From Thermoproteota archaeon (GTDB taxonomy: Archaea > Thermoproteota > Thermoprotei > Thermoproteales > Thermocladiaceae): 46,112 nt of DNA. Of this stretch, positions 13,279-34,106 are shown in pieces. The stretch spans positions 1 through 46,112 of the forward strand of contig JAADDN010000005.1 of assembly GCA_013153895.1 (NCBI GenBank), given 5' to 3'. Position numbers and translations under genes: made by a program. Within the stretch, counting starts at the first letter, position 1. Each line of letters opens with the position of its first letter. The notes beneath the pieces are model-generated. The model did not search any database. It was not told where the DNA came from and saw nothing but the letters and a program-made list of their open reading frames with translations.

Positions 13279-14100
13279 ATGCCTAAGCTCTACATAATTG
13301 GCCTAGGAGTATATCCTGACTATCTCTCACTAAGAGGTATTGAGGTATTGAGGAAAGTGTCAAAAATATTTGTAGAACTTTACACATCACCAATACCATA
13401 CGACACTCTTAAAAATATTTTAGAAAAATATGTGAAAGATATTCATGAGAAACTTGAAATACTCACAAGAAAAGATATAGAAGACGAAGATTGTAGGAAA
13501 ATAATTAGAGAGTTAGAGAAAGGAGAAGATGTTGCATTACTTGTTCCTGGCGATCCAATGTTTGCTACAACTCACAGTATTGTGAGGATCATAGTTAAGA
13601 AGAGAGGATTTGAGAGTGAAGTTATTCATGGAGTTTCTATATTAAATGCTGTGATAAGTCTACTTGGCTTAAGTCCATATAGGTTTGGACCAGTAGCTAC
13701 AATAGTGTACCCAAGACTAAATGTTCTTCCAGAGAGAGCTTACGATGTTACTTTAGAAAATCTTAAGAGAAGTCTTCACACGCTCTTACTATTAGACATA
13801 AGAGATGATGGAGGATTCATGACTGCGAGCGAAGCTATAGAAATTCTAAGAGTACTTGAAGGTAAGAGGAGAGAAGGAGTATTTATTGATGATAGAGTCA
13901 TAATAGTGCTCGAGAGAGTAGGATTTCCAGATCAGAAAGTACATATATTAACTCTAGGAGAAGCTAGAGAAATCTCTTATGGAGAACCACCGCACAGTAT
14001 AGTAGTTCCAGGAAGACTCAACCCTGTTGAACAAGATCTTCTTCATGTTGAGTTTGGAGCTGATTATGAGATTCTTCAGAAAGCTGGATTGCTTCTCTAG
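13279..14100 (+). CDS. dphB: Diphthine synthase
   Basis: KLYIIGLGVYPDYLSLRGIEVL, VALLVPGDPMFATTHS, HGVSILNAV..LGLSPYRFG. Confidence 0.93.
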   Translation: MPKLYIIGLGVYPDYLSLRGIEVLRKVSKIFVELYTSPIPYDTLKNILEKYVKDIHEKLEILTRKDIEDEDCRKIIRELEKGEDVALLVPGDPMFATTHSIVRIIVKKRGFESEVIHGVSILNAVISLLGLSPYRFGPVATIVYPRLNVLPERAYDVTLENLKRSLHTLLLLDIRDDGGFMTASEAIEILRVLEGKRREGVFIDDRVIIVLERVGFPDQKVHILTLGEAREISYGEPPHSIVVPGRLNPVEQDLLHVEFGADYEILQKAGLLL

Positions 14101-27443: not shown

Positions 27444-28507
27444 AGAGCATCCTTCTAGTCAAGGATCTACACGTAGATCTAGGAGAGTTCAAGATTGAGG
27501 ACATAACGTTCACAGTAGATAGAGGAGACTATGTATGTGTGATAGGTCCAACAGGTTCAGGAAAGACCATACTCATAGAAACTATAGCAGGTCTCTATAA
27601 ACCAAAGAGAGGATCAATAATCTTAGATGGTGAAGATATAACAGATCTACCACCTGAGAAGAGAAATATTGGAATAGTATATCAAGACTATGCATTATTC
27701 CCACATATGACAGTGTTTGACAATATAGCATTTGGCCTAAAGAAGAGAATAAGCAAGAAGAGTGAGATAATTAGAGAAGTGAAGACGATAGCTCAAAAAT
27801 TAGGAATAGAACATATTCTTCATAGAAGACCAACTACTTTAAGCGGAGGAGAACAACAGAGAGTAGCATTAGCAAGAGCTCTCGTTGTCAGACCAAAATT
27901 ATTGTTAATGGATGAACCTTTCAGTGCACTAGACTTCAAAACTAGATCGAGATTAAGAAAGCTAGTTAGAGACGTAGTCTCCGAATATAATACGACAGTC
28001 ATACATGTTACTCACGATTTTGAAGATGTGTGGAGTCTAGCTAACAAGGTAATGGTGATGTATAGAGGAAGAATATTACAGTACGATACTGTTGAGGAGG
28101 TCTTTAATAGACCTTGTTCTGATTTTGTTGCAGATTTCATAGATATTAATGTTATGGAAGGTGTAGTCACATGTAGTAATGATAAAACTATAGTAAGAAT
28201 AGGGGATCTAGAGATAATGAGTAAGGACAAAGTTTATGAAGGAAGTAGAGTTAAAGTATTTATAAGACCTGAACGTGTATTAATTCTCAAGTATAGACCT
28301 GATAAAAAGTTTGAAAACATATTAGAAGGATTTGTGGAGAATATTGAGAATAGAGGAAGCATGATCTATGTATGGGCAAGAGTTAACAATATTCTCATGA
28401 AGTGTGCATTTACGCCCAATATTTTGAATATTGTTGATTTCAGGATAGGTGATAAAGTTTACCTATGTTTTAGAAGCGATGATGTGAGGCTGTTTGTCTT
28501 CTCTTAA
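27440..28507 (+). CDS. modC: ABC transporter ATP-binding protein, molybdate/tungstate type
   Basis: Walker A IGPTGSGKTILIETIAG, LSGGEQQRVALARAL, LLLMDEPFSALD, plus C-terminal TOBE-like domain. Confidence 0.92.
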   Translation: MKSILLVKDLHVDLGEFKIEDITFTVDRGDYVCVIGPTGSGKTILIETIAGLYKPKRGSIILDGEDITDLPPEKRNIGIVYQDYALFPHMTVFDNIAFGLKKRISKKSEIIREVKTIAQKLGIEHILHRRPTTLSGGEQQRVALARALVVRPKLLLMDEPFSALDFKTRSRLRKLVRDVVSEYNTTVIHVTHDFEDVWSLANKVMVMYRGRILQYDTVEEVFNRPCSDFVADFIDINVMEGVVTCSNDKTIVRIGDLEIMSKDKVYEGSRVKVFIRPERVLILKYRPDKKFENILEGFVENIENRGSMIYVWARVNNILMKCAFTPNILNIVDFRIGDKVYLCFRSDDVRLFVFS

Positions 28508-29839
28508 GCTTTCTCTAGCTCTCTTCATCACTTCTGATGCATATTGTATAGCTCTCTCTATAAGATCTCTATAGTTTCCTAGATAGTTCTCAGGTCTTAT
28601 CATCTCTATCTCCTCTCTAGTAAGAATCTTACTTATCTCCTCATCTTCGAGAAGTGCTTCCTGTAGAGACTTCCCCTCTATGTACTTTCTCGTTATCTTT
28701 CTAAGCATCTCATGAGCTTTTCTTCTAGGTACTCCCTTCTTAATTAGAATATTCATCACCATCTCTGTGAGAGTAAAGTTTTTCAAAAGTTCAAGATTCT
28801 TCCTAATATTTTTCTCATTTATTGCAAGATTCTTCAATACCTTAATCATAGATATCAACATCTCGTCCAGTATCAGGAAGGCATGAGGTATGAGTATTCT
28901 CTCACAGCTGCTATTGGTCAAGTCTCTCTCATGCCAGAGTGGTATGTTCTCTAGTGCAGGTATTACGAGTCCTCTCAACATTTTTGCAAGTCCAGAAACT
29001 TTTTCTGATGTTACAGGATTAGCTTTATGAGGCATTGCTGAACTCCCAACTCTCTCAAAAGCTTCATACATCTCTCCTATCTCAGGTCTCGATAACTCTC
29101 TTATCTCGAGTGCAAGCCTATCAAGCTGTGAACCTATGATAGCTATTGCAGATATCAGGAAAGCAAAACCATCTCTCGGAGCTACTTGTGTAGATATTGC
29201 ATGAGGCTCTAGACCAAGCTTCTCTAGAGTCCTTCTTTCAACCTCTAGACCTTTCCCTTCCCAAGCAGCCATGGTTCCAACAGCTCCAGAGATCTTTCCA
29301 CGTACTACCATTCTCTCAGCATACATGAGTATCTCTAATCCTCTAGAGATCTCATACACGTAATTAGCAAATTTGAAGCCTAGAGTTATTGGAAGAGCGT
29401 GCTGTCCATGAGTTCTACCGATCATGACTAGGTCTGAGTACTTTCTAGCCTTATCAATCAACTCTTCTAAAAGCTCTATTACACGCCTCTTTATTATTCT
29501 TAATGCATCTCTTATAAGTAATGCCCATGTTGTATCAACTATATCGTAGCTTGTTGCACCATAATGAACAAATCTACATCCTGACTTCTCCTCTAGTAGG
29601 AAGGCTAGTCCAGCTATATCATGCCCTATCTTTCTCTCCATCTCATATACTTCTTCTGGTTTTACTTCAACATTTTTGACCTTCTCGCAGCATCCTTTTT
29701 CTGCTATTCCAAGCTCCTCTAGAGTACATACTAGCGCTCTTTCAACTTCAACGTACTTTCTCACTATATTTTCAACTCTAAATATGTTACGCATCTCCTC
29801 TGAGCCGTAACGCCAGTCTAGTGGACATACGTAGTCCAT
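28463..29839 (-). CDS. purB: Adenylosuccinate lyase
   Basis: PLDWRYGSEEMRNIF, GATSYDIVDT, GRTHGQHALPITLGFKFANYV, GSSAMPHKANPVTSEKVSGLAKMLRG. Confidence 0.97.
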   Translation of the reverse strand: MDYVCPLDWRYGSEEMRNIFRVENIVRKYVEVERALVCTLEELGIAEKGCCEKVKNVEVKPEEVYEMERKIGHDIAGLAFLLEEKSGCRFVHYGATSYDIVDTTWALLIRDALRIIKRRVIELLEELIDKARKYSDLVMIGRTHGQHALPITLGFKFANYVYEISRGLEILMYAERMVVRGKISGAVGTMAAWEGKGLEVERRTLEKLGLEPHAISTQVAPRDGFAFLISAIAIIGSQLDRLALEIRELSRPEIGEMYEAFERVGSSAMPHKANPVTSEKVSGLAKMLRGLVIPALENIPLWHERDLTNSSCERILIPHAFLILDEMLISMIKVLKNLAINEKNIRKNLELLKNFTLTEMVMNILIKKGVPRRKAHEMLRKITRKYIEGKSLQEALLEDEEISKILTREEIEMIRPENYLGNYRDLIERAIQYASEVMKRARESLREDKQPHIIASKT

Positions 29840-29985
29840 ATCTCGTCTAGACGTTGAGCATGTACTTATCGTTTAATTACTAAATTAAAAAGAGAAAGAG
29901 ATATGTAACATACTAATCAAAAAGTAGACCTTGACATAGTTCAACGGTTAAATATAGTTTAAGAAGAGATACTCACGGAAGAATC

Positions 29986-30822
29986 ATGTACAGTTGCACA
30001 GAACTCAAGACCCCAGACCTACCTAACTCCGCTCGATACATCATTACGTACCTCAAGTATAAGCATCTCGTCGAATGCGTTGACTCCGTAACATTTAGAG
30101 AATTAGTAGAAGGTACAGGTCTGTCCCCTAGAACCGTTAGAAAAGCAATATCCATGCTTCGTGATCTAGGTCTCATAAGAATAGTCAGAGATGTATCTCA
30201 TGGTAGAAGACACCTCTATCAGCTCAACTTTAAGAAATTAAGATCATTTGATGGAAATGGTGAGAGATCTGTTAACGCAGGAATATACTTGATAGATGTT
30301 GGGATAGGCTTAAGAAAGTTCATGAACCCTAAAGCTCTATCGGTACTATTCAATAGTGAGGTAGTGTTCCACACAGATAATGTTCCAGATCAAGTTCTAG
30401 ATCTTGTACCTGAAGGTACAGAAATATATCATGTATCTAAGCTTCAGAAGATGCTTCAGTCGATAGATGGTAAAGTTGCAACTATACTCATAGATGGTAT
30501 ATTAGATGAGGAGTATGCTAGAAGAATACCGGAGCTAGTTAAGTCAGTGTCAATAATAACATGTACATCACCTATCACATATGCTGCTGAGCTTCTAAGA
30601 TGTGGTAGATCTTGTAGAGTAATATTTAGGAGGACCCCAATACAGCTTCAGATACTATCAAGAAGACCTCTACGTCAGATTAATGGTGAGATCATAAAAT
30701 GTATAAAAGTAGAGTTATGTGGACCTAATAATGATAAGATATGTATTGAGGAGTGCTCTGTAGATCAATGTTTTACGTGTAATGACAATGTTGCTTACGT
30801 AATCTACGTGAGACCCTCATGA
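29986..30822 (+). CDS. HTH protein with C-terminal tetrapyrrole-methylase-like domain and Cys-rich tail
   Basis: wHTH VTFRELVEGTGLSPRTVRKAISMLRDLGLIRIVRDVSHGRRHLYQL; IYLIDVGIGLRKFMNPKALSVLFNSEVVFHTD..VLDLVPEGTEIYHVSKLQ..SITYAAELL-like layout resembles TP-methylase; tail CIKVELC..KICIEECSVDQCFTC. Confidence 0.6.
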   Translation: MYSCTELKTPDLPNSARYIITYLKYKHLVECVDSVTFRELVEGTGLSPRTVRKAISMLRDLGLIRIVRDVSHGRRHLYQLNFKKLRSFDGNGERSVNAGIYLIDVGIGLRKFMNPKALSVLFNSEVVFHTDNVPDQVLDLVPEGTEIYHVSKLQKMLQSIDGKVATILIDGILDEEYARRIPELVKSVSIITCTSPITYAAELLRCGRSCRVIFRRTPIQLQILSRRPLRQINGEIIKCIKVELCGPNNDKICIEECSVDQCFTCNDNVAYVIYVRPS

Positions 30823-30915: not shown

Positions 30916-31932
30916 GTGCCTGCAACAGTTGTAGTAGGTGGAGCATTTGGAGACGAAGGTAAAGGTAAGGTTGTTGCTTATCTAGCACTTGCAGACAAGC
31001 CCGCTGGAGCTGTGAGAACAGGAGCCATAAATGCTGGTCATACGGTAGTACATAAGGGAAGGATGTGGAAGCTCAGAATTGTTCCTTCAGCCTTCTTATC
31101 AGAGAACACTAAGCTATTTATTGCACCTGGAGCATTAACTAGAATAGACGTGTTTCTAAAAGAGGTTGAAGAGACAGGCGTTGAAGGTAGGATAATGATA
31201 GATGAGAAGACTGGAATAATAGAGGATAAGCACGTGAAGATGGAGAGAGAGAACGAGTATCTCATGAAGGTCATCGGATCAACAGGGCAGGGAGTTGGTG
31301 CAGCAATGGTTGAGAGAGTTCTAAGAGTTCTAAAACTTGCAAGAGACTTTCCTGAGCTTAAGAGATATGTTGGAGATACAGTAGCAATAGTGAACGATCT
31401 TCTTGATAAAGGTGAGATAGTTCTCGTAGAAGGTACTCAAGGAACATTCCTAAGCCTCTATCATGGAACATATCCATACGTTACATCTAGAGATGTCACA
31501 GCATCAGCTGTACTGAGCGAGGCAGGTATAGGACCTAGAAAAGTTGGAGACATAATACTCGTATTTAAAGCATATTGGACAAGAGTAGGAGCAGGAGAGC
31601 TGCCAGGAGAGCTACCACCAGAGGAGGCAGCAAAGAGAGGATGGGTAGAATATGGAACAGTTACAGGAAGACCGAGGAGAGTAGCACCATTTAACGTAGA
31701 GTGGGCTAAGAGAGCAATAATGTTAAACACACCTACACAGATAGCAATAACGAAGATAGATGCATTATTCCCAGAAGCTAAAGGTAAACGTAGATGGGAG
31801 GATCTACCAGTAGAGGCTAGAAGATGGATAGAGGACCTAGAAGACAAGTTGAAAGTTCCCATAACTCTGATAGGCACAGGAGAGGACGCCGAGGACATGG
31901 TAGATAGGAGAAGAGAGATATTCGGAAAATAG
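30916..31932 (+). CDS. purA: Adenylosuccinate synthetase (short archaeal form)
   Basis: VVVGGAFGDEGKGKVVAYLAL, GAINAGHTVVHKGRMWKLRIVPSAFL, STGQGVGAAM, VEGTQGTFLSLYHGTYPYVTSRDVTAS. GTG start. Confidence 0.97.
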   Translation: MPATVVVGGAFGDEGKGKVVAYLALADKPAGAVRTGAINAGHTVVHKGRMWKLRIVPSAFLSENTKLFIAPGALTRIDVFLKEVEETGVEGRIMIDEKTGIIEDKHVKMERENEYLMKVIGSTGQGVGAAMVERVLRVLKLARDFPELKRYVGDTVAIVNDLLDKGEIVLVEGTQGTFLSLYHGTYPYVTSRDVTASAVLSEAGIGPRKVGDIILVFKAYWTRVGAGELPGELPPEEAAKRGWVEYGTVTGRPRRVAPFNVEWAKRAIMLNTPTQIAITKIDALFPEAKGKRRWEDLPVEARRWIEDLEDKLKVPITLIGTGEDAEDMVDRRREIFGK

Positions 31933-32648: not shown

Positions 32649-34106
32649 GTGAAGTATGATGTAGTTATAGTAGGCGCAGGACCTGCCGGTCTCTTCGCAG
32701 CTTATGAGCTATGTACGAATCTTGAGAAGTCTTCTAGAAAGTTATCGATACTGCTCATAGATAAGGGAAGAAGAGCACTTGAGAGACAGTGTTATCTGAA
32801 GATTAAGGGTAAATGTATGAAGTGTAGGCCCTGTAACATAATGTGTGGTATTGGTGGTGCAGGTACTCTAAGTAGTGGAACTATAAATCTTAGACCTGAC
32901 ATAGGAGGAGATCTTCATGAGCTTATTGGTAGCTGGGATGTTGCTGAGAAACTTGTATACTATGTTGACTCAATATTTGTGAAATTTGGTGCACCTGATA
33001 GAGTATTTGACCCCAGCTGTGAAGAATTTAGAGAACTTCAGAGGAGGTTCGTTAAGGTTGGTGCTCAGCTCGTAAGAATAAGACAGAGACATATAGGTAC
33101 TGACAATACTCCCAAGATAATAGAGAACATGACCAGATACATAGAGTCTCATGACGTTAAGATAGCTACCTTAACAGAGGTGTTTGATGTAGAGAAGAGA
33201 GGAGATACAATAATAGTGAAGACTAGCAGAGGTGATGTAGAGTGTAATGTTGTTCTCATGGCTCCAGGTAGGTCAGGTGCTGAGTGGTTTAAGGAGGTTG
33301 CTAAGAAGCTTGGAATACAGCTTGAGCCTAATCCTCTAGACATTGGTGTTCGTGTTGAAGTACCATACTACGTAATGGAGCCTCTAACAAAGTTCTTCTT
33401 TGACCCGAAGATAATAATATATACTAAGACCTATGATGATAAGGTTAGAACATTCTGCACAAATCCTGGAGGTTTCGTCATAAGAGAGAACTATGATGAT
33501 GGTACTGTAGGAGTTAACGGTGAGACATATACAGACAGGAAGTCAAAGAACACAAACTTCGCTCTCTTAGTCAGCTTAAGATTAACAGATCCTCTAAGTG
33601 ATACTATTGAGTATGGTAAAGCTATTGCGAGAATGGTCACCAAGCTTGGTGATGGTAGACCAATAATACAGAGGCTAGGGGACTTGAGAGTAGGTAGAAG
33701 ATCTACCTGGGATAGAATACGTAGAAGCATAGTAGAACCAACATTGAAGGAGGTCGCTCCAGGAGATATAGCTCTAGCACTTCCTCATAGAGTAGTGACA
33801 GATCTCTTAGAAGCCTTAGATAGGATCGATGAGGTTATTCCAGGAGTAGCATCAAGCCATACTCTTCTCTATGCACCAGAGATAAAGTATTACAGTATGA
33901 GAGCAGTAGTAAACAGGTTTATGGAGACTACTGTAGAAAACATATTTGCTGCAGGTGATGGTGCTGGATTATCGAGAGGAATAAATATTGCAGCTGCTAC
34001 AGGAATAATAGCGGCATGGGGAATATTGAACAAGTTTGGTATTGAGATTACAAATCCACTATACGATGAATATGAGAAGGTAACTGCAGGAGTAGAGAGG
34101 ACTTAA
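32649..34106 (+). CDS. FAD-dependent dehydrogenase (COG2509-like)
   Basis: [84 protein letters not shown] start. Confidence 0.88.

Follow-up and report, generated by a model that had tools for sequence, protein, structure and literature searches.

What is the role of a gene that lies between purB and purA in an archaeon of the Thermocladiaceae and appears to join a DNA-binding domain to a decayed methylase? We addressed this question in a window of 46,112 nucleotides, i.e. the whole stretch of contig JAADDN010000005.1 that was analysed, and the features of the locus are collected in Table 1. The open reading frame at 29986-30822, stop codon included, starts with ATG and encodes 278 amino acids. 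It is found in the order purB<-HTH->purA in all five genomes of the source genus, although the identity of the protein drops to 51% and 39% in the two most distant members, and hence a chance reading frame or an assembly artefact can be ruled out. The preliminary description of this DNA had placed the reading frame at exactly these positions, with purB divergent and purA directly downstream, and our comparison confirms both points. The gap between the gene and purA is so short in one relative (G002) that both genes may be co-transcribed there.

Table 1. Features of the purB-purA locus in the window (positions on the forward strand; residues refer to the 278-residue protein)
Feature	Position	Strand	Basis or remark
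purB (adenylosuccinate lyase), transcribed divergently; putative target	28463..29839	-	
AAAAGAGAAAGAGAT, 15-bp candidate cis element in the intergenic region next to purB	29888..29902	.	
TTGACATAGTTCAA, weak candidate operator immediately 5' of the putative TATA box; imperfect inverted repeat, as a repeat no better than chance	29931..29944	.	
TTAAATATAG, candidate TATA box ~30 nt before the ATG of the regulator gene	29948..29957	+	inferred from sequence
wHTH-TPM regulator gene (predicted), A copy, 278 aa	29986..30822	+	ORF and orthologues in 5/5 genus genomes
Winged helix-turn-helix, residues ~13-88	30022..30249	+	Pfam HTH_24/MarR_2, AF2
Degenerate tetrapyrrole-methylase Rossmann domain, residues ~99-205	30280..30600	+	hhalign, controls, Foldseek
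Asp104, where TPMs have the first Gly of their GxGxG loop	30295..30297	+	invariant 32/32
Residues 170-174, DGILD instead of the catalytic/SAM-binding GDP loop	30493..30507	+	Asp174 invariant 32/32
C-terminal beta domain, residues 210-276 (second TPM domain, probably in shrunken form)	30613..30813	+	AF2 strands
Cys-rich stretch C239-C265	30700..30780	+	lineage-specific, no family feature
purA, adenylosuccinate synthetase, downstream neighbour	30916..31932	+	93 bp from the regulator gene, against 15 bp in G002

Some further features of the locus were observed. The window purB is 54-60% identical to the purB of Thermoproteaceae and ~30% identical to that of Vulcanisaeta-like genomes; purA, unlike purB, is closest to its own family, and a replacement of the purB gene is possible. 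A gene for a FAD-dependent oxidoreductase-like protein with a clustered Cys motif (32649-34106) lies 3' of purA, and its place is conserved in the genus.

The protein begins with a winged helix-turn-helix (wHTH), as had been described. It passes the gathering score of Pfam HTH_24 (22.1 bits against 21.9), and the AF2 model has the helices at residues 14-28, 37-44 and 48-60 and the wing strands at 64-69 and 75-80. The recognition region of this wHTH, TGLSPRTVRK, is invariant among the purAB-linked copies of the source genus, which we call A copies.

The C-terminal half was proposed to follow the layout of tetrapyrrole methylases (TPMs; PF00590), and several comparisons bear this out. The window protein alone stays below the cut-off of Pfam TP_methylase (17.0 bits, E 0.006, cut-off 27.8) and matches the NCBIfam SUMT model with E 9e-4. 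In our family alignment of 32 sequences, TP_methylase is matched by 23 members, and the other members for which scores were shown reach 18.8-23.0 bits, likewise under 27.8. The best PDB matches of the family profile are precorrin-4 methyltransferase and SUMT, with E from 2e-4 to 7e-4. An hhalign comparison of the domain profile with 22 ordinary TPMs from the same archaeal order gave a probability of 97% (E 1e-10, residues 100-201); 28 unrelated families encoded in the surrounding loci served as controls and gave 0.0-3.4%. Modelled alone, the domain has a pLDDT of 94.9 and a pTM of 0.90, and all 50 matches listed by Foldseek for this model are TPM-type enzymes, not proteins of an unrelated fold; the top one among them is CbiF (E 5e-7, query TM 0.51, rmsd ~11 A). 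With the hhalign result and Foldseek in agreement, the likeness to TPMs is far beyond chance. The layout YxxGxGxxxxxLTxxAxxxLxxADVVxY..VP of the known TPMs (SUMT/CysG, CbiF/CobM, Dph5) is common to the Rossmann domain of our family, and so is the Ser motif after the GDP region. The C-terminal half is homologous to tetrapyrrole methylases, its first domain sharing their fold and ancestry, and we regard the reading of the whole protein as a wHTH followed by a TPM-derived domain (wHTH-TPM) as nearly certain.

The second domain has just ~67 residues, mostly in strands (210-215, 220-225, 235-245, 251-256 and 269-276 in the AF2 model), and the Foldseek alignment spans it with an rmsd of 10-13 A. The modest TM score together with the high rmsd suggests that mainly the first domain superposes on the TPM structures and that the second is shrunken or turned.

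A profile search detected the family throughout two archaeal families of one order (about 41 of 44 genomes), which we infer to be Thermocladiaceae (Vulcanisaeta-like and Caldivirga-like genomes and the source genus) and Thermoproteaceae; the named close relatives of the source genome are metagenome-assembled 'Thermoproteota/Thermoproteales archaeon' genomes. At E <= 1e-12 the 36 remaining genomes of the class yielded no member, and none was found in the one genome that represents a third family of the order. In a sample of 349 genomes of the phylum, the matches outside the two families were almost all to the wHTH only, plus one ordinary TPM, and a search for viral relatives found none. The wHTH-TPM gene is vertically inherited, and the two archaeal families separate in the protein tree. 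The A copies and a second group of copies in the source genus (B copies) form sister clades with support of 99/98 (99-100 for each clade), and hence one duplication took place in this genus.

The family stands beside different genes in different lineages. The Vulcanisaeta-like copies follow a thioredoxin-reductase-like gene and face a cluster of DUF1641, SQR-like and TusA-like genes; purA lies 5.5-9.5 kb away from them where the contig allows, and is not adjacent. The Caldivirga-like copies adjoin a HIT gene. Conserved synteny with purA and purB had been suggested as a check, but homologues outside the source genus, and the B copy within it, lie away from pur genes, so pur synteny as a trait of the whole family was rejected and is limited to the source genus. 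It follows that purine control is not the general job of the family and could be at most that of the A copy. A common neighbour across genera, the GltD-like gene of the window against the thioredoxin-reductase-like gene of the Vulcanisaeta-like genomes, was also considered, and it proved merely a generic Rossmann match.

Other observations on the family are as follows. The B copy (L031:4585-5436; also L036, L038 and L067) is followed by a Nudix hydrolase gene and by a short gene that is conserved and encodes a metalloprotease-like motif. A ThiF/MoeB-like E1 gene adjoins the wHTH-TPM gene in nearly all Thermoproteaceae (L055:7344-8081, L057:7487-8245 and other loci), and in the Thermoproteus-like genus it overlaps the start of that gene. 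Several Thermoproteaceae genomes have more than one copy; short paralogues of ~190 residues in this family end after the Rossmann half (L060:7027-7605, L063:7012-7581). In two draft genomes the gene is split between frames with stops (G022:C5:116697-117522, in L169, and G042:C13:5996-6662), either by decay or by sequencing error.

The 146-bp region shared by purB and the A copy was examined for candidate operators. The 15-bp element AAAAGAGAAAGAGAT is found exactly at this place, and nowhere else, in four of the five genus genomes and is absent from G004; its one-mismatch matches are as rare as those of a reversed control pattern. It lies ~50 bp before purB and consists of purines only except for the last base. 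It may be an operator or simply a portion of the purB promoter, the latter being suggested by its purine composition and its absence from G004. The candidate TATA box TTAAATATAG is conserved in G001 and G003, and the upstream regions of the family genes in other genera show TATA-like conservation only. Palindromic operators were rejected, since TTGA-N6-TCAA (G000, G001 and G003), TTGAGG-N5-CCTCAA (G002) and TACGTAA-A-TTACGTA (G004) do not occur above the level of shuffled sequence. The region is 81-89% identical to that of two relatives, compared with 44-66% at the four-fold degenerate sites of the three genes of the cluster; this conservation is real against the four-fold sites but ordinary among the promoter regions of the window, and a special status of the region was rejected. 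The gap between the A copy and purA is among the least conserved intergenic regions compared, and a special purA operator is therefore unsupported.

Outside the family, most of the nearest relatives of the wHTH lie at the C-terminus of NAD-kinase-like proteins. Most Thermoproteales have two NAD-kinase-like genes, and only the stand-alone one was found in the source genus. Among the sequences inspected, GGDG(T/S) is retained by the stand-alone kinase and reads GxD(R/K) in the fused one, so the fused protein may be another retired enzyme. Examples of the fused genes are L075:2705-3628, L077:3208-4131, L078:4201-5094, L079:3901-4791 and L091:2405-3298, among others. The NAD-kinase-like proteins resemble wHTH-TPM in having the nearest wHTH, an enzyme fold without its signature loop and a place beside purB; they differ in the sensor fold, in carrying the wHTH at the C-terminus and in missing a ~6-residue insert that our family has. 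In one other genus the NAD-kinase-wHTH gene lies beside purB in five of six genomes, divergently in four. By a rough, post hoc estimate, 0.03 such purB adjacencies are expected by chance at the genus level, with P(>=2) ~5e-4. That two unrelated sensor folds with the same type of wHTH are found beside purB, which is unlikely by chance, is the best independent hint at a link between this wHTH type and purB; no purB promoter motif common to the two genera was seen by eye. We speculate, with considerable doubt, that Thermoproteota joined one wHTH type to cofactor enzymes (TPM, NAD kinase) whose signature loops were then lost, and that two of these proteins, with unrelated sensor folds, each came to act at the purB promoter in a genus of its own, thereby tying AMP synthesis to a cofactor signal, e.g. 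SAM or NADP.

Our analysis suggests that wHTH-TPM is a DNA-binding regulator, which we hold with good confidence. The reading we favour, as a probable one, is that of a one-component regulator which uses a retired methylase fold as its sensor and dimerisation domain, with the A copy being local to the cluster of purB, its own gene and purA. This best explanation is backed by the wHTH and the TPM homology, the degenerate yet constrained pocket, the presence of the family in nearly all genomes of two archaeal families and its duplication in the genus, the locus kept in five of five genomes, the conservation of the region shared with purB relative to four-fold sites, the exact AAAAGAGAAAGAGAT in four of five and the parallel of the NAD-kinase-wHTH gene beside purB. 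Against it stand the inverted repeats at the level of shuffled sequence, the ordinary rank of the region among promoters of the window, the poorly conserved gap before purA, the absence of AAAAGAGAAAGAGAT from G004 and the neighbours of the family outside the genus. The N-terminal wHTH would bind DNA, and the TPM fold, having lost methyl transfer, would serve ligand sensing and dimerisation. After the duplication of the ancestral gene in the genus, the A copy would have become the local regulator of this cluster, acting from the shared promoter region on purB, on itself and possibly on purA. That the A copy controls purB locally has, in our view, about an even chance. The preliminary description had proposed a SAM-binding fold reused as a ligand sensor, possibly for adenine nucleotides/SAM or redox state, that controls the AMP branch; what stands of this is the TPM fold without its catalytic loop, fused to a DNA-binding domain beside purA and purB, while control of the AMP branch could apply to the A copy of the genus at most.

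The strongest alternative accepts a wHTH-TPM regulator but takes its place between purB and purA as an inherited order without function, the real targets being elsewhere, e.g. among sulfur, cofactor or redox genes. It is in keeping with the thioredoxin-reductase-like, SQR-like, TusA-like, ThiF, HIT or Nudix genes beside the relatives, with the poor conservation of the gap before purA, and with the distance to purA in Vulcanisaeta-like genomes, which means that the proximity may be old. Against it are the tight arrangement, invariant in all five genomes at a protein identity as low as 39%, the exact occurrence of AAAAGAGAAAGAGAT only between purB and the regulator gene, and the position next to purB, in a second genus, of another protein that carries this wHTH, given the post hoc expectation above. 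We consider this alternative possible though somewhat unlikely.

A different view of the sensor half would make the protein a redox or metal sensor that works through C-terminal cysteines. The Cys-rich tail that had been noticed is present, and the window protein has eleven Cys; other lineages of the family have CxC or CLTCG motifs of their own. But the tail cysteines (239, 245, 253, 257, 262 and 265) are limited to three genomes, the source genome and the two nearest to it, and the remaining two members of the genus have not kept them, so that no tail position is conserved across the five A copies and no Cys position across the family. Redox sensing by the tail is disfavoured since the tail is not conserved, and intracellular disulfides are common in hyperthermophilic archaea anyway; a Cys-based sensor is thus very improbable.

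Could the protein still be an enzyme, i.e. a SAM-dependent methylase tethered to DNA or RNA? The fold and the remnants of a SAM site in one of the two families (the VGIG loop, the VP motif and Ser/Pro after the next strand) would fit. We judged the degeneration against real TPMs, including the diphthine-synthase-like TPM of the window itself (13279-14100). The GDP loop, whose absence had been correctly noticed, is missing in all 32 members, which have (D/N)-x-x-(L)-D at this position; in GxGxG the first Gly has given way to an invariant Asp, and the other two Gly are retained in one family and lost in most of the Thermoproteaceae, where the loop is lost or shortened. In addition, the D/R of YDRLVP is changed to T-x-x-V, where T130 and V133 are invariant or nearly so. 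The protein also has an N-terminal wHTH and a second domain that seems shrunken, and no member reaches the TP_methylase cut-off of 27.8 bits where scores were shown. The loss of the GDP loop and the Asp at the first Gly position make methyl transfer very unlikely; we hold it as highly probable that wHTH-TPM is non-catalytic, and a remaining enzyme as extremely unlikely.

According to the DSSP strings of the models, D104, T130, V133 and D174 lie at the C-terminal ends of parallel Rossmann strands. This is the usual small-molecule binding edge of a Rossmann sheet, so these invariant or nearly invariant residues likely mark a rebuilt pocket rather than a dead scaffold. In the favoured regulator this pocket would receive the ligand, for which a nucleotide type is our guess.

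A CARF/Csa3-type CRISPR regulator, whose sensor is likewise Rossmann-like, can be dismissed with near certainty: the wHTH of 25 of the 32 members is matched by profiles of Csa3 (best E 1.7e-6), but the match of the window protein is confined to the wHTH, the domain order is reversed against Csa3 with its CARF sensor at the N-terminus, the sensor domain finds TPM structures in Foldseek, and no CRISPR genes were seen nearby. The sensor domain alone matches no CARF model. The wHTH sequence type is common to Csa3, to other MarR/ArsR-like archaeal wHTH regulators and to wHTH-TPM, whose sensor is TPM-derived. Enzyme-derived regulators are known, e.g. Bacillus PurR, which has a phosphoribosyltransferase fold and controls purine genes, and BirA. 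Like wHTH-TPM they combine an HTH with a retired or moonlighting enzyme domain as sensor, but their sensor folds are unrelated to that of wHTH-TPM and no common ancestry is implied. No paper on TPM-HTH or NAD-kinase-HTH regulators was found in the open literature, most subscription journals being outside the scope of the search.

If our reading is true, wHTH-TPM would be a probable transcription-factor family in nearly every sequenced genome of two families of Thermoproteales, with a sensor from an enzyme fold for which we found no earlier description as a regulator in the open literature. It would be a clear example of enzyme-to-sensor evolution, and the A copy would be a testable candidate for a regulator of AMP synthesis in archaea on whose gene regulation little work has been done.
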